Origin: Wenjunlia vitaminophila DSM 41686 | Lineage (GTDB): Bacteria; Actinomycetota; Actinomycetes; Streptomycetales; Streptomycetaceae | Reading direction: 5' to 3' | Assembly: GCF_000380165.1 (NCBI RefSeq) | Contig: NZ_KB904651.1 | Location: forward strand, 70,265-134,264 | DNA: 64,000 bases | Part shown: positions 26,224 to 32,420 of the stretch, in pieces | Layout of the letters: every line of letters starts with the position of its first letter | How positions within the stretch are numbered: the stretch's first letter is position 1 | Position numbers and translations under genes: made by a program | Notes under the pieces: model-generated | Told to the model about the DNA's origin: nothing | The model's input: the letters and a program-made list of their open reading frames with translations, nothing else | Database searches by the model: none

Positions 26224-28266
26224 CTACTCCCCGCCCTCCGCGGCGCCGTCCCCGTCGTCCTCCTCGTCCTCGTCGTCCTCCTCGTCATGGTCGTACTCGT
26301 AGGCGGTTTCCAGGAGCTCGCGAAGCTCCTTGTCCCCGGCCGGGTCCTGCTCGACCCACCAGGCCGCCCCGGGTCCCCCGTCGGACTCCCGCCCCAGGGC
26401 GCGTTCCGCCGCGGCTATCCAGGGCACGGCCTCGGCCGCGGGGACCGACGAGTCCCAGTCGTCGGGGTCGAAGTCCATGTCGTCGTAGTCGCGGATCATC
26501 GGGACGGGAACCCGGACCTGCCGGTGCTTCGCCATCCAGGTGTTCCGGAAGAAGTCGAACCGCAGGTGGTAACAGTCGTCCGTCTCGGTGAAGAAGATCG
26601 GGGGGACCAGGAAGTGCGCCGCGTCCACGGTGGCCGCCACGTCGATGTAGTTCGCCGGTGTGCCACCGGCGTTCCAGCAGGCCGCGAAGTTCACCGGGGC
26701 CAGCGACTCCCGGCCGAGGACGTGGATCTGGTTCCCCCGGACCTGGAACCTCGCCGGGTCCAGGACCACGTCCTGGCCGAGCATCAGGATGGGCGCCGGC
26801 ATGATGTGCGCCCTGGCGAACGTCTGCGCCGTCTCGTTGAGGTCGACGATCTCGTCGAACCGCGTGGCGACGAACTCGGGGAAGGAGTGGAACGGGCAAC
26901 AGGCGTCGTTCGTCTCCTCCGACTCGGGGAAGAGCAGGGACTTGTCGAAGGCGGCGACGGCGTCCGCGGCCCGCTCGCCGCCCCCGCCGCGCTCGTCCCG
27001 CCGCGCGGTGAGGAAACCGGGAATCCAGTCCGTGCCCGCGGCCTCGATCACGGACGACTCGCACACGTCCCGGAACGCTGAGTCGCCGAGCTTGCAGTTG
27101 AAGTAGTCGAGCAGCGTGATCGCGGCGCACTCGGCGAGCGAGATCCCCTCCTGCCTGGCGAACCAGAAGTCGTAGCCGTTGGCGACGAAGTCGACGCCGC
27201 GGAACCGCTTGTGGACGAACGGCTCGCTCGCGGCGGCGCCGTCGGACGGGCCGTTCCAGTGGGCGGCCGCGACCTGGTTGTAGTAGGCGTCGGCGTGCGC
27301 GGCCAGCTCCGGGGCGAAGACGCTCTCCCCGGTCAGGTAGCACGCCTTGCTGAACAGCGCGCCGATCTCCGGGGCGTGCGCCACCTCCGACCCGGCCTGC
27401 TCGAAGACCAGCTCGGTGCGGAGGAAGACCTTGCGGCCGTCCCGGTAGGGCGCGCCCTCGTGCTCGTACCGCTGGTCGAAGACGACGCAGGTGAAGGGCG
27501 CGATGTCGGTGAGGGCGACACCGTCGGAGAGGTCGAGCGCGGGCTCGCCCGAACCACCGGTGAGGTAGAGCAGCAGCGTGTGACGGGAGACGTGGCCGCG
27601 GGCGGCGTCGTAGTACGGGGTGTCCAGGTGGTGGTGGAAGTTGGCGTCGCCCGGCTCGAAGCGGTTGCACCGGAACACCGGGTTGACGTGCAGGAAGCCG
27701 TCGAGCACCGCCTCGGGCAGCGCCGCGGACACCGCCTTGGTGAGCGCGTCGGCCAGCAGCGCCGAGTGGAAGATGAAACGCTCGCCACCCCGGGAGCCCG
27801 AGTTGAGCGGCGGGACGTACAGGCCCAGTCCGTCCAGGCCCTCGACGCGGGCCCGGCCGGCGTCCGGCAGCCGCAGCCGCGCCGAGTACACCCCCCGCGC
27901 CAGCTCCTCGGGCTCGGCCAGCGTGAGGTCCAGGGGGACGTCCGCGAAGAGCCGGTCCAGCGGCACGATGTTCTCGAAGGTGCGGAACGACAGCTCCCGC
28001 GGGTCCACGAACACGGCGGCCAGATGCGGCGCGCCCTCGCTGGGCCGGGCGAACAGCTCGCGGGTGGGGGCGTCGATGCGGTCCGCGTCGACGAAACGCA
28101 CCGCCTTGAAGCGGGCCGTCGGGTGCCAGGAGACGGCCAGCCCGTCGACGAACGCGGCGGGCTCGGCGTCGGTGGCATCGACCTCGGCGCGGTAACGGGC
28201 CACCTCGTCCGCGCTGGCGGTGCCGGTGGACAGGGCAAAGAAGCGGTCGCGGAGATCGGTGCTCAC
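26224..28266 (-). CDS. Large 2OG-Fe(II) dioxygenase-like protein with an unassigned C-terminal half
   Basis: The 680-residue protein starts at GTG 28266, which overlaps the stop of the LRR gene (GTGA). Residues about 160-290 look like a prolyl-4-hydroxylase-type double-stranded helix: metal motif HLD (His213, Asp215) in HHHLDTPYYD, distal His269 in YEHEG, and basic residues in GRKVFLRTELVF (Arg278 or Arg283) that could bind 2-oxoglutarate. Residues 1-150 and 300-650 match no family I know. The latter is rich in aromatic residues, with CCPFHSFPEF and YHLRFDFFRNTW. The tail (about 655-680) is nearly all Asp/Glu. Cytosolic, with no signal peptide. Confidence 0.75.
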   Translation of the reverse strand: MSTDLRDRFFALSTGTASADEVARYRAEVDATDAEPAAFVDGLAVSWHPTARFKAVRFVDADRIDAPTRELFARPSEGAPHLAAVFVDPRELSFRTFENIVPLDRLFADVPLDLTLAEPEELARGVYSARLRLPDAGRARVEGLDGLGLYVPPLNSGSRGGERFIFHSALLADALTKAVSAALPEAVLDGFLHVNPVFRCNRFEPGDANFHHHLDTPYYDAARGHVSRHTLLLYLTGGSGEPALDLSDGVALTDIAPFTCVVFDQRYEHEGAPYRDGRKVFLRTELVFEQAGSEVAHAPEIGALFSKACYLTGESVFAPELAAHADAYYNQVAAAHWNGPSDGAAASEPFVHKRFRGVDFVANGYDFWFARQEGISLAECAAITLLDYFNCKLGDSAFRDVCESSVIEAAGTDWIPGFLTARRDERGGGGERAADAVAAFDKSLLFPESEETNDACCPFHSFPEFVATRFDEIVDLNETAQTFARAHIMPAPILMLGQDVVLDPARFQVRGNQIHVLGRESLAPVNFAACWNAGGTPANYIDVAATVDAAHFLVPPIFFTETDDCYHLRFDFFRNTWMAKHRQVRVPVPMIRDYDDMDFDPDDWDSSVPAAEAVPWIAAAERALGRESDGGPGAAWWVEQDPAGDKELRELLETAYEYDHDEEDDEDEEDDGDGAAEGGE

Positions 28267-28970
28267 ACGCTCCTCCAGAAGCTGCGCAGCGCGGACGGGA
28301 GCTGAGGGGCGGACGCCAGGACCGCCACACCCGCGTCGGAGACGTCGCGCCGGTAGAGCAGGAGACGGGTGAGGGAGCCGACGAACGGCGCCGCCAGCAG
28401 CGCCCGCGCGCCGTCCGCGCCGATCCGGTTGTACCGCAGGTCGAGCTCGCGGAGCCGCTCGAAGCCGGCCAGGGCGCGCACCCCCTCGGCGGTCAGCGCG
28501 TTGGACTGGAGGTGCAGCCGCCGCACGCCGCGGAACGTCGCAGAGCGGGCCAGGGCCGCCACCCCGTCGTCGCCGATGCCGCAGTAGCGCAGGTCGAGCG
28601 TCTCGATCCGCCCGTCCGAGGAGGCGGCGGCCAGGCTCGTGGCACCCGGGTCGCCGAACCGGAAGTGCGCGAGGTCCAGCTCGCCGATCCCGCCGAGATC
28701 CAGCCCAGCGAGGCCGCCCGCCTCGTGCGGCGGCAGGAGCGGCTTGCCGTCCTCGTCGAAGTCCGGCTCGTCGCTCCAGTACTCGTCGTCCGCCTCCGCG
28801 GCCTCCGCCCCGGGCCTGATCCGCAGCCCGGTCACCCCCGGGGCGCGCACCAACTCGGCTATGCGCGCGGGCGCCTCGGACGACCACTCGACGACCACCG
28901 TGTGGCCGCCGTCGGCCTCCGGGACGCCAGGAGGCAGTAATGACACGTGTTCTGACGGCATCGCGGTCAT
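28263..28970 (-). CDS. Leucine-rich repeat protein (ribonuclease-inhibitor-like repeats)
   Basis: The 235-residue protein starts at ATG 28970 (MTAMPSEHVSLLPPG); ATG 28961 is an alternative. After an N-terminal domain with an acidic segment (EAAEADDEYWSDEPDFDEDG) it has four or five 24-29-residue repeats of the RI/LRR type: IETLDLRYCGIGDDGVAALA, VRRLHLQSNALTAEGVRALA, LRELDLRYNRIGADGARALL and LTRLLLYRRDVSDAGVAVLA. LRR arcs bind proteins. Its stop overlaps the 2OG-oxygenase start, so it may present substrates to that enzyme or regulate it. Confidence 0.8.
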   Translation of the reverse strand: MTAMPSEHVSLLPPGVPEADGGHTVVVEWSSEAPARIAELVRAPGVTGLRIRPGAEAAEADDEYWSDEPDFDEDGKPLLPPHEAGGLAGLDLGGIGELDLAHFRFGDPGATSLAAASSDGRIETLDLRYCGIGDDGVAALARSATFRGVRRLHLQSNALTAEGVRALAGFERLRELDLRYNRIGADGARALLAAPFVGSLTRLLLYRRDVSDAGVAVLASAPQLPSALRSFWRSV

Positions 28971-28984
28971 GTCCAGCACCCTAG

Positions 28985-29110
28985 ACGCGACCACTGACAG
29001 TCGACCGGCCCGCGCCCCGGCGCACACGGCGACCCCCGACGGGGCCTTGCCGTCACGCACCGGGACGACGCCCGGGAGTCCGACGCCTCCGCGCCGGTGG
29101 CTGCCGAATC
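28985..29110 (-). pseudogene. Possible DUF397 gene remnant
   Basis: On the minus strand just before the LRR gene a short frame reads VGLPGVVPVRDGKAPSGVAV, aligning with GLHGVVPVRDSKDPQGPAL of the intact DUF397 proteins at 34.1-34.5 kb. There is an upstream stop and no start, so it would be a remnant. The match is short and may be coincidental. Confidence 0.35.
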
Positions 29111-29204: not shown

Positions 29205-29774
29205 TCACACTGCGGCCACCGCGGCCAGGTCCACCCCGGCCCAGCGGGCGCCCACCCCCCGCAGGGTGACCGCGCGGTCCTCGTCCGGTTCGGCGTCCGG
29301 CGCCTCCGTCCCGGCTCCACCGGTGGTGCGCTCGATGACCACCTGGAGGTAGTCCTGGGAGAGCTCCTCGACCCTGCCCTCGCCCCACTCGACCACCACC
29401 ACCGACTCCGGCAGCGACACGTCGAGGTCGAGGTCCTCCATCTCATCGAGGCCACCACCGAGCCGGTAGGCGTCCACGTGGACCAGCGGCGGGCCGCCGA
29501 CCGTGGAGGGGTGGACCCGGGCGATCACGAACGTGGGGGAGGTGACGGCCCCCCTGACCCCGAGGCCCTCACCGACCCCCCTGGTCAGCGTGGTCTTGCC
29601 GGCGCCCAGGGCACCGGTGAGCAGCACCAGGTCCCCGGGGCGCAGCGCGGCGGCGAGGCGGCGGCCCAGCTCCCGCATCCGTTCCGCGGAGTCGATCGTG
29701 GCCCTGGCCACCGTCAGCGGCACGGGGGCGTGTGGTGCTTCCCCGTTCTGTGTCTGGCTGATGGGTGCGTCCAT
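29205..29774 (-). CDS. tsaE: tRNA t6A biosynthesis ATPase TsaE
   Basis: The 189-residue P-loop ATPase has Walker A GALGAGKTT (54-62), the SPTFVIARVH switch and VHVDAYRL, and the WGEGRVEEL segment. These are the TsaE hallmarks. It powers the TsaB-TsaD cycle that makes threonylcarbamoyl-adenosine in tRNA. It starts 12 bases after the hydrolase stop, so alr-hydrolase-tsaE is one operon. tsaB is separated from it by the accessory block at 20.6-29.0 kb. Confidence 0.95.
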   Translation of the reverse strand: MDAPISQTQNGEAPHAPVPLTVARATIDSAERMRELGRRLAAALRPGDLVLLTGALGAGKTTLTRGVGEGLGVRGAVTSPTFVIARVHPSTVGGPPLVHVDAYRLGGGLDEMEDLDLDVSLPESVVVVEWGEGRVEELSQDYLQVVIERTTGGAGTEAPDAEPDEDRAVTLRGVGARWAGVDLAAVAAV

Positions 29775-29785
29775 GTCCGCGGACT

Positions 29786-31117
29786 CTACGCGTCGGGCGG
29801 CCGGGCTCCCGCGCTCACCGTCGCCGCCAGGGCCCTGATCGGCTCGGGCAGCGCCGCCCCCGCCCGGTCGGCGGCCCGTACCAACAGCCCGGCCAGGTGC
29901 GCGTTGACCAGCTCGGGCCGCTCCAGGAGCGCCATGTGCGCCGCGTCCTTGACGGGCACCAGTTCGGCACCCGGGAGCTGAGCGGCGATCGCGGCGCTGT
30001 GGTCCAGTGGGGTGATCAGGTCCCGCTCCCCGGCCAGGATCAGCACGGGTATCCCGTCCAGGTGGGCGAGCGCCTCGGTCTTCTCGTGGGCGGCGAACGC
30101 CGGGTAGAACTCCGCCACGACGTCGATGGGGGTGGACTCCAGCATGCGCTGGGCGAACCGCACCACGGCGGGGTCCACGTCGCGGCTGCCGAACGAGTAC
30201 CGCTTGACCAGCGAGGTCAGCACCTCCGATGCGGCGCGGCGGCCCCGTTCCACCAGGTCCACCTGGTTGCCGAGGGCCCGCAGGACCCCGGGGGCGACCC
30301 GGTGCAGCGTCCGTGCGCCGGCGGCCGGAAGTCCGAACGTGACCGTGCCGAGACCGCCAGCAGTGGTGCCGAGGAACGCCACCCCGGCCACCCGCTCCCG
30401 CACGAACTCGGGGAACTGGTCGGCGAACGCCATGATCGTCATCCCGCCCATGGAGTGCCCCACCAGCACCACCGGCCCCTCGGGAACGGCGGCGTCAAGC
30501 ACCGCCTTGAGGTCCCGGCCCAGCTCGTCGATGGTGGCGGGGGTGCCGTCGCCCTGGGTCACCCCGCGCTGGGACCGCCCGTGGCTGCGCTGGTCCCAAT
30601 AGATCGAGCGGACCCGGCCGCGCAGTGCCTGGCGCTGGAAGTGGAACGAGTCCTGGTTGAGCGCGTAGCCGTGGCAGAAGACCGCGGTCAGCGGCGGGCG
30701 GGACGGTGCCTGACCGGTGCCCGTGTCCACCCGGGGGTGGCCGAGTCCCAGCGCGCCCAGCACCCGCTGCCCGGGTCCGACCTGAGCGGCCCCGGCCCCG
30801 TCGGCCCCGGCCCCGTATGCCTCCGCCGGGTCGGTCTCGTAGGACAGCACCGTGCCGTCCTCGGCCACCACGGTCCCCGGAGTGCCGCGCAGCGAGCCGT
30901 AGGGGCCCGCCACGTCCAGGGCGAGCTGCGCCCTGCGGCGGATGGACCTGCCCACGGTCAGCCGCTCCGCCGCGACCCCGGCCACCGCGCCCGCGGCGAC
31001 CACGCCGACCGCGACGCCCAGGACCCCGGCCTGTTTGCCGGCCTTGGCCCAGCGGCCCCGCACCGCTTCGGACAGCGCCTCTCCCGCGGCTGCCGCCACC
31101 CCCGGCCGATCAGCCAT
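29786..31117 (-). CDS. Alpha/beta hydrolase with N-terminal membrane anchor
   Basis: The 443-residue protein has a hydrophobic segment at 31-50 (GVLGVAVGVVAAGAVAGVAA) and then an alpha/beta hydrolase domain. It contains FCHGY (oxyanion, about 148), nucleophile Ser222 in VGHSMGG, an acid in GERDLITP and His in DAAHMALLERP. The substrate is unknown; the gene is conserved between alr and tsaE in actinomycetes as I recall. The ATG at 31117 overlaps the alr stop by eight bases and follows GTGAGGG. Confidence 0.9.
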   Translation of the reverse strand: MADRPGVAAAAGEALSEAVRGRWAKAGKQAGVLGVAVGVVAAGAVAGVAAERLTVGRSIRRRAQLALDVAGPYGSLRGTPGTVVAEDGTVLSYETDPAEAYGAGADGAGAAQVGPGQRVLGALGLGHPRVDTGTGQAPSRPPLTAVFCHGYALNQDSFHFQRQALRGRVRSIYWDQRSHGRSQRGVTQGDGTPATIDELGRDLKAVLDAAVPEGPVVLVGHSMGGMTIMAFADQFPEFVRERVAGVAFLGTTAGGLGTVTFGLPAAGARTLHRVAPGVLRALGNQVDLVERGRRAASEVLTSLVKRYSFGSRDVDPAVVRFAQRMLESTPIDVVAEFYPAFAAHEKTEALAHLDGIPVLILAGERDLITPLDHSAAIAAQLPGAELVPVKDAAHMALLERPELVNAHLAGLLVRAADRAGAALPEPIRALAATVSAGARPPDA

Positions 31118-32318
31118 CGCCCTCACCGGTGCCGGCGAGCGGGGCCTCAAGGCCGGGGCTCGGGGCGCCGCCGCCCCGCTCGGGCGGTGCGGTGCGGTAC
31201 ACCCGGGGAACCCGGACCCCGATCCGGGTGACGATCTCGTAGGCGATGGTCCCGCAGGCCCGCGCCCAGTCCTCCGCCGTCGGCTCCCCGGCGTCCCCCG
31301 GACCGAACAGCACCACCTCGTCCCCGACCTCCGCCGCGTCGCCGCCGAGGTCCACCACGAACTGGTCCATCGCCACCCGCCCGGCGACGGTGCGCCACTT
31401 GCCGGCGATCCACACCGGCCCGGTGCCCGAGGCGTGCCGGGGCACGCCGTCCGCGTAGCCGACCGGGACCAGGCCCAGCGTCGTGGACCCGGGCGTGGTG
31501 TAGGTGTGCCCGTAGGAGACGCCGTGCCCGGCGGGGACCCGTTTGACGTTCGCCAGCCACGCCCGCAGCGTCATCGCCGGGCGCAGCCCGAACTCGGCGG
31601 GCCCACCGAGCTGCGGCACCGGGGACAGGCCGTAGACCGCGAGGCCCGGGCGGACCAGGTCGAAGTGCGCGGCGGGCAGGGTGAGGGTGGCCGGGGAGTT
31701 GGCCATGTGCCGCACCTCGGGATCGATCCCCGCGGCGCCGGCCACCGCGAGGGCCTGCCGGAACGCGGTGAGCTGCGCCTCGATGGAGGGGTGCCCGGGC
31801 TCGTCGGCGCAGGCGAAGTGCGACCACAGGCCGGTGACCTTCAGCACGCCGGCGGCCTCGGCGGCCCGGGCGTCGGCCACCAGGTCGGGCCAGTCCGCGG
31901 GCTGGCAGCCGTTGCGCCCCAGGCCGGTGTCTGCCTTGAGGTGCACCCTGGCCGGCCGCCCCGTCTCCTCGACCGCGGCGACGACCTCGCGCAGCGCCCA
32001 CCGGCCGCTGACCGAGACGTCCACGTCGGCGCGGATCGCCTCCGCCCAGGGGCCGCCGGGCGTCCACAGCCAGCACAGGATGCGCCCGTCGAGCCCGGCG
32101 GCGCGCAGCTCCAACGCCTCGTGCGGGGTCGCGGTGCCCAACCACTCCGCCCCGGCCGCCCGGGCCGCGCGGGCGACCCGCACCGCGCCGTGCCCGTACC
32201 CGTCGGCCTTGATCACAGCCATCACGCCGGCCCCGCGGACCCGGTCGCGCAGGGCCCGGACATTGGCCCCGATCGCGGCCAGATCAACGGTCGCCTGGGC
32301 TCGCATCGCAGTATCCAT
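31110..32318 (-). CDS. alr: Alanine racemase
   Basis: The 402-residue PLP enzyme interconverts L- and D-alanine for peptidoglycan. The Schiff-base lysine is Lys37 in AVIKADGYGHG. The second active-site Tyr is in the VSYGHTYTTPGST region, and GYADG is the PLP phosphate contact. The ATG at 32318 (MDTAMRAQATVDL) is chosen; an ATG at 32306 is equally possible. The upstream frame to 32372 lacks conservation. In the usual order nnr would precede it, but a 3.5-kb accessory block intervenes. Confidence 0.96.
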   Translation of the reverse strand: MDTAMRAQATVDLAAIGANVRALRDRVRGAGVMAVIKADGYGHGAVRVARAARAAGAEWLGTATPHEALELRAAGLDGRILCWLWTPGGPWAEAIRADVDVSVSGRWALREVVAAVEETGRPARVHLKADTGLGRNGCQPADWPDLVADARAAEAAGVLKVTGLWSHFACADEPGHPSIEAQLTAFRQALAVAGAAGIDPEVRHMANSPATLTLPAAHFDLVRPGLAVYGLSPVPQLGGPAEFGLRPAMTLRAWLANVKRVPAGHGVSYGHTYTTPGSTTLGLVPVGYADGVPRHASGTGPVWIAGKWRTVAGRVAMDQFVVDLGGDAAEVGDEVVLFGPGDAGEPTAEDWARACGTIAYEIVTRIGVRVPRVYRTAPPERGGGAPSPGLEAPLAGTGEGDG

Positions 32319-32420
32319 CCAGGTCAGTGTCTCAGGCGGACCGATCGGCGGAAAACGGTAATCCGCCCTCACCGGTCCCGCTGGCGCACCGCGAGGGCGT
32401 CAGTCACCGCGGGGCGGCTC

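Follow-up and report, generated by a model that had tools for sequence, protein, structure and literature searches.

The closest described systems to the locus reported here are the prolyl and lysyl hydroxylases (P4H, PHD2, LH3 and vCPH), whose jelly-roll core holds iron through an HxD...H site and carries, ten positions after the distal histidine (H+10) on the last core strand, a basic residue that is Lys in collagen P4H and Arg in PHD2 and LH3. Also close is the OGFOD1/Tpa1/Ofd1 family (uS12 prolyl 3-hydroxylase), for which PMC4396695 describes an RXS motif that binds 2-oxoglutarate (2OG) in OGFOD1 and Tpa1, and a C-terminal half of OGFOD1 that is a second, non-catalytic jelly roll carrying an acidic loop. 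The locus lies in Wenjunlia vitaminophila DSM 41686, within a 64,000-nucleotide stretch of contig NZ_KB904651.1 (positions 70,265 to 134,264, hereafter the window), and consists of two genes on the minus strand, as are all features of the pair given below: one for a leucine-rich repeat (LRR) protein of 235 residues (28263..28970, ATG 28970 to stop 28263) and, downstream, one for a 2OG-Fe(II) oxygenase-like protein of 680 residues (26224..28266, GTG 28266 to stop 26224). We have little doubt that the latter is genuinely an enzyme of the 2OG oxygenase type and that it is paired with the LRR protein, and it represents a new family within the known 2OG-Fe(II) superfamily, in a new partnership. The more specific reading, a DNA-damage-inducible protein hydroxylase whose LRR partner selects the substrate, is given an even chance of being correct.

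The structure of the oxygenase was predicted with AlphaFold (model m2bba306ed31a, mean pLDDT 77.9, mostly 78-97 across residues ~110-290) and compared with the PDB by Foldseek and VIA. The initial annotation, made from the sequence only, had recognised a 2OG-Fe(II) core in the 680-residue protein, and a double-stranded beta-helix (DSBH) is indeed predicted around the HxD...H residues, the catalytic region extending over residues ~105-299 (27370..27954). The best Foldseek match was vCPH (5c5t, E 2.8e-6), followed by the prolyl hydroxylases of P. putida (P4H, 4j25/4iw3) and Dictyostelium. With VIA, 3dkq and OGFOD1 (4nhy; root-mean-square deviation (rmsd) 3.2, 169 aligned) shared the best score at Z 14.0, ahead of the lysyl hydroxylase LH3 (6tex, Z 13.9) and PHD2 (8z31, Z 13.7), many DSBH oxygenases scoring at Z 13-14 over residues ~105-299. 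These tied Z values place the modelled structure in the neighbourhood of peptidyl hydroxylases, with no substrate singled out. In addition, a profile-profile comparison with 2OG-FeII_Oxy_3 proteins of related genomes aligned the HxD motif and the distal His (P 9e-4), the controls giving P 0.33 for the C-terminal half and P 0.64 for a reversed profile. The assignment to this enzyme class is well supported.

Alignment of the homologues, which show 42-75% identity, revealed that the iron ligands His213-x-Asp215 (27622..27630), the distal ligand His269 (27460..27462) and the basic residues K279 and R283 of the last core strand (27418..27432) are unchanged in 37/37 sequences. The active site as first annotated (His213, Asp215, His269 and Arg278/283) therefore stands except for R278, which is conserved in only 34/37 homologues and was set aside as 2OG binder, conservation favouring K279. 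The latter, at distal His + 10, aligns with the 2OG-binding Arg (G-x-R) of 2OG-FeII_Oxy_3 proteins and is, as judged from the alignment, probably the residue that binds the C5-carboxylate of 2OG, R283 being invariant as well.

Used alone as query, the oxygenase gave no match in NCBIfam, PDB sequences, PHROG or PADLOC, and only chance-level matches in Pfam. A profile of the 37 members found no PDB sequence, and no member carried a relevant Pfam family (none AlkB or 2OG). No relative was found in viral contigs or phage records, which makes a phage-borne system unlikely. No description of the LRR-oxygenase pair surfaced in the literature searched (subscription papers not covered), the text of a conflict-systems paper on MoxR/vWA mentions neither a 2OG oxygenase nor an LRR module, and both genes are labelled 'hypothetical protein' in one annotated record examined, in keeping with the initial view of an undescribed module. 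Unlike the prolyl and lysyl hydroxylases, with which it shares the jelly-roll core, the iron site and the basic residue at H+10, the oxygenase has ~105 extra N-terminal and ~380 extra C-terminal residues, a near-constant LRR neighbour and no Pfam or PDB sequence match. With OGFOD1, Tpa1 and Ofd1 it has in common a catalytic N-terminal domain, a large C-terminal half and an acidic disordered region. The RXS motif, on the other hand, is absent, since the alignment has GRKVFLRTEL where R-x-S would be expected; the acidic stretch forms a tail; the C-terminal half is not recognised as a second DSBH; and no LRR partner of OGFOD1 is mentioned in the available part of PMC4396695. Because the RXS motif is absent and a C-terminal jelly roll is not recognised, the oxygenase was not filed as a member of the OGFOD1/Tpa1 family.

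The second half of the oxygenase had already seemed unfamiliar at first annotation, and residues 299-612 (26431..27372) remain without a known-fold match: modelled alone (pLDDT 77), they matched no solved fold (best Foldseek E 0.32, Z 2.8), a result that is still compatible with a second DSBH. Sliding-clamp-like Foldseek matches of this half were discarded (E >= 0.3, rmsd > 20 A). This region contains a C456-C457-x-x-H460 motif (26887..26901), conserved in 34/37, 36/37 and 34/37 members respectively, and an invariant Cys530 (26677..26679, 37/37), which possibly form a metal site; the C-terminal half may itself be a new fold. The acidic tail noted initially is present (26227..26295), its occurrence being limited to actinobacterial members, most of which carry it, with none in the myxobacterial and planctomycete ones.

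The partnership with the LRR protein was followed through the genomes of 84,980 species, a single scan of which returned 37 oxygenase loci (numbered below with the prefix L). The actinobacterial hosts belong to Streptomyces, Embleya, Kitasatospora, Nonomuraea, Actinomadura, Nocardiopsis, Streptomonospora, Rhizohabitans, Dactylosporangium and Virgisporangium, and the others are several myxobacteria, namely Plesiocystis, an Archangium metagenome-assembled genome (MAG) with two copies and uncultured Myxococcales, and one Planctomycetota MAG. With the window counted, an LRR gene adjoins the oxygenase gene in 36/38 places, in Actinomycetota, Myxococcota and the Planctomycetota MAG, usually directly upstream; in the planctomycete (L034) it is convergent and downstream (E 6e-6), and it is missing at L037 and L038. 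The GTGA overlap of the two genes (28263..28266), a sign of translational coupling, is retained as RTGA in 31/31 other actinobacterial loci checked. Both the overlap and the pair noted at first are borne out, and the pairing is well supported; neither outcome named initially as refuting the proposal, an HLD/His region without a double-stranded helix or homologues never found side by side, was observed. Moreover, an uncultured myxobacterium (L036: 1988-4753) has one frame of 921 codons with an IF2_N-like start that takes in both an LRR stretch and a complete oxygenase, an apparent natural LRR-oxygenase fusion. The distance matrices of LRR protein and oxygenase are correlated within the actinobacteria (r 0.89, to which shared species history contributes), consistent with genes inherited together, and the neighbours of the pair are conserved within clades, which argues that the pair is not merely transient. 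Large Streptomyces and Embleya plasmids also carry copies. The copy of Streptomyces sp. NBS 14/10 (L038: 7989-8720) is decaying and has lost all of the oxygenase except its C-terminal third, and in a Kitasatospora (L039: 813-1049) the LRR gene is reduced to the last ~35 profile positions beside a full-length oxygenase.

As to the LRR protein itself, the ribonuclease-inhibitor (RI) type arc described initially was retrieved by LRR_6 (E 5.7e-19; 28266..28703, boundaries approximate). Its unfamiliar N-terminus turned out to be what remains after loss of the repeat-companion domain TIGR02996, which is kept in 26/31 aligned LRR homologues (best E 1.9e-9) and has disappeared from the lineage of the window, though promoter and start codon are kept. 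No N-terminal domain was found either in the Virgisporangium LRR protein (L030) with a full-length query, and therefore the domain is dispensable in at least some lineages. TIGR02996 together with RI-type LRR in 26/31 partners relates the family to the TIGR02996 repeat-companion LRR proteins, from which the window copy differs by lacking the domain; no fixed 2OG oxygenase partner of such proteins was found described in the literature searched, where TIGR02996 is not mentioned at all. The LRR region alone also reached 31.7 bits with the STM4015 family (NCBIfam NF038076), below the cut-off of 275.

A search for a third conserved partner yielded only clade-specific recurrent neighbours, on the opposite strand. 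In the Nonomuraea clade (L021: 5366-6889 and equivalents), conserved genes for a DUF6745 protein and an unassigned 140-residue protein lie divergently upstream of the pair. In Actinomadura and Streptomonospora (L013, L014, L019, L020, L023, L024 and L031), conserved genes for an AAA ATPase and a DUF2201 protein (putative metallopeptidase) stand tail to tail with the oxygenase gene (L013: 9989-13437, minus strand).

The link to DNA damage is a new finding, the promoter having been overlooked in the initial annotation. The RecA-independent DNA-damage promoter (RecA-NDp) has the consensus tTGTCRgtg - 8 nt - TannnT (PMC5656591) and depends in mycobacteria on PafBC (PMC5656591; PMC6789036), the activation of which by single-stranded DNA (ssDNA) is established in these bacteria (PMC11804915). 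A promoter of this type, TGTCAGTG-N8-TAGGGT, is located at 28978..28999, with its -10 element ending 7 nt before the LRR start codon, so that the mRNA is probably leaderless. The site (cTGTCAGTG-N8-TAGGGT) matches the consensus except at the weakly conserved first base. Given the promoter position, ATG 28970 was taken as the LRR start rather than GTG 29060, the start chosen by a mechanical open reading frame (ORF) caller, which lies upstream of the promoter.

Pattern searches with TGTCRGTG-N8-TANNNT, used to sample the regulon, gave 20 sites in the 6.4-Mb genome against 0 for the reversed control. Starts 6-8 nt behind the motif include those of recA, polA, sbcD, xth, a PDDEXK nuclease, a SWIM-domain protein, a protein designated L061 and the LRR-oxygenase operon, and farther downstream of other sites are ruvC, the uracil-DNA glycosylase gene ung, genes for an AlkZ-like glycosylase and a RecD2-type protein, and a DUF4132 gene. 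Among these, the SWIM zinc-finger protein is L048 (G000:C17:39362), L061 (G000:C46:45529) has 335 residues without a Pfam match and starts 6 nt behind its motif, and the DUF4132 protein is L062 (G000:C51:3505). The host also encodes PafC (HTH_PafC, E 6.9e-30; G000:C13). At the homologous loci, the exact motif is present in ten (L004, L005, L007, L008, L009, L010, L020, L024, L026 and L072) and a version with one mismatch in six (L003, L006, L012, L013, L021 and L023), L021 combining it with a perfect TTGACA box; in shuffled upstream regions the exact motif occurred 3 times in 100,000 (P 3e-5 per region). The promoter assignment is therefore well supported, and the locus shares with the PafBC/RecA-NDp regulon the consensus, the leaderless spacing and the presence of the same promoter at recA and repair genes of its genome; no 2OG oxygenase-LRR operon was found described as a member of that regulon in the literature searched. 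As a precedent, UV causes a five-fold induction of SCO6735, a Streptomyces coelicolor gene that lies behind a RecA-NDp promoter (PMC5087735). For Streptomycetaceae and some members of Actinomadura the link to damage is a strong one, without being universal. TTGACA-type promoters are located 5' of the LRR gene at L016, L017, L018, L021, L025, L027, L028 and L029, several of these loci bearing a CATTCGTWCGAATG-like palindrome over -10/+1 that is possibly a repressor operator, and a different regulator possibly governs the same pair there.

From these features a mechanism can be proposed in which ssDNA arising from damage would activate PafBC and thereby transcription of a leaderless mRNA from the RecA-NDp promoter, in the window genome as in many Streptomyces, and the two proteins, produced from one operon by coupled translation, would form a two-subunit assembly. 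Iron would be held by H213, D215 and H269, and 2OG would be anchored by K279 with the help of R283. The LRR protein would bind the enzyme, the target or both and so deliver one particular protein to the catalytic centre, and the C-terminal half of the enzyme would probably contribute to binding either the LRR partner or the substrate. Made alongside RecA, Pol I and excision nucleases, the enzyme would then hydroxylate its target during recovery from damage. The notion of an LRR-guided protein hydroxylase, already put forward in the initial annotation, is one that we infer from the nearest folds of the predicted structure being those of peptidyl hydroxylases.

Several observations weigh against this reading of the pair as a damage-inducible protein hydroxylase. 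The Foldseek list also contains ALKBH2 (3rzh, E 2.1e-4) and KanJ, and fold alone cannot tell protein substrates from nucleic acids or small molecules. The profile-profile probability was only 23% (few diverse sequences), and the apparent fusion L036 comes from a MAG contig with an LRR match of modest strength (E 4.5e-4), where every Pfam LRR model stays below its cut-off. Loci of Nonomuraea and Dactylosporangium carry instead, at the same spacing, a perfect TTGACA-16-TACATT or TAGATT promoter. Finally, few genomes carry the family (2/150 relatives, 3/395 in the class and 1/396 in the phylum, the window's own genome being included each time), a rarity with which an accessory or conflict role would agree as well. 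With ALKBH2 among the matches and a promoter common to DNA repair genes including those of the AlkZ-like glycosylase, ung and xth, the enzyme could function like AlkB, removing alkyl lesions from DNA or RNA with the LRR protein as accessory subunit; this is considered unlikely, since the prolyl and lysyl hydroxylases are closer in fold and rank above ALKBH2, none of the 37 members has an AlkB or 2OG Pfam match, and LRR partners are generally protein binders.

The presence of the antibiotic-tailoring oxygenase KanJ among the fold neighbours raises another explanation, in which the LRR protein would present a peptide or small-molecule precursor for hydroxylation by the oxygenase, and the hosts are indeed rich in secondary metabolism; the weak resemblance of the LRR proteins to the STM4015 family, which we take to come from an operon with predicted modification enzymes, points the same way. 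Conserved biosynthetic neighbours are nonetheless absent, the recurrent ones being only the clade-specific DUF6745 or AAA and DUF2201 genes, no precursor-peptide gene was seen (small ORFs were not systematically searched for), and co-regulation with DNA repair is untypical of such clusters, so that tailoring also appears improbable. A conflict module, toxin-antitoxin-like or abortive, in which the co-translated LRR protein restrains an oxygenase that harms a host component once freed, would account for a small upstream gene overlapping a large one by 4 nt, the patchy distribution and plasmid copies, the damage-type promoter and the AAA ATPase and DUF2201 genes adjoining the pair in seven actinobacterial loci. 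It too is held to be unlikely: PADLOC and PHROG gave no match, synteny is vertical within clades and the active site strictly conserved, an apparent fusion such as that of L036 would be unusual for an inhibitor, and the convergent neighbours are not co-transcribed. Lastly, the pair could carry out a damage-independent housekeeping modification, comparable to that of uS12 by OGFOD1 or of EF-Tu by bacterial P4H, its RecA-NDp promoter being an accident of lineage. Its fold neighbours OGFOD1 and P. putida P4H do act on translation proteins, and the Nonomuraea-type loci have a sigma-70-like promoter, but the rarity of the family and the company of the promoter in the window genome speak against it and leave it with a low probability.

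The pair is situated on contig C17 of the 6.43-Mb host genome, which belongs to the Streptomycetaceae, as does that of Embleya hyalina. Upstream on the same strand are tsaE (29205-29774), an alpha/beta hydrolase gene (29786-31150) and an ORF that looks by eye like an alanine racemase gene (31110-32372), and on the other side of the pair, on the plus strand, genes for a major facilitator superfamily transporter and a pyridoxal phosphate-dependent enzyme.

The family is missing from Pfam despite an active site intact in 37 members and an LRR partner across three phyla. Few bacterial protein hydroxylases are known to us, and none was described in a bacterial DNA damage response in the literature searched. 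The promoter gives a direct functional handle on the pair and a condition in which to seek the substrate. Tentatively, the locus could represent a bacterial pathway of damage-induced protein hydroxylation, in which an LRR adaptor would direct a 2OG oxygenase to a protein of replication, repair, transcription or translation; if this were true, recovery from DNA damage would depend on oxygen and 2-oxoglutarate.

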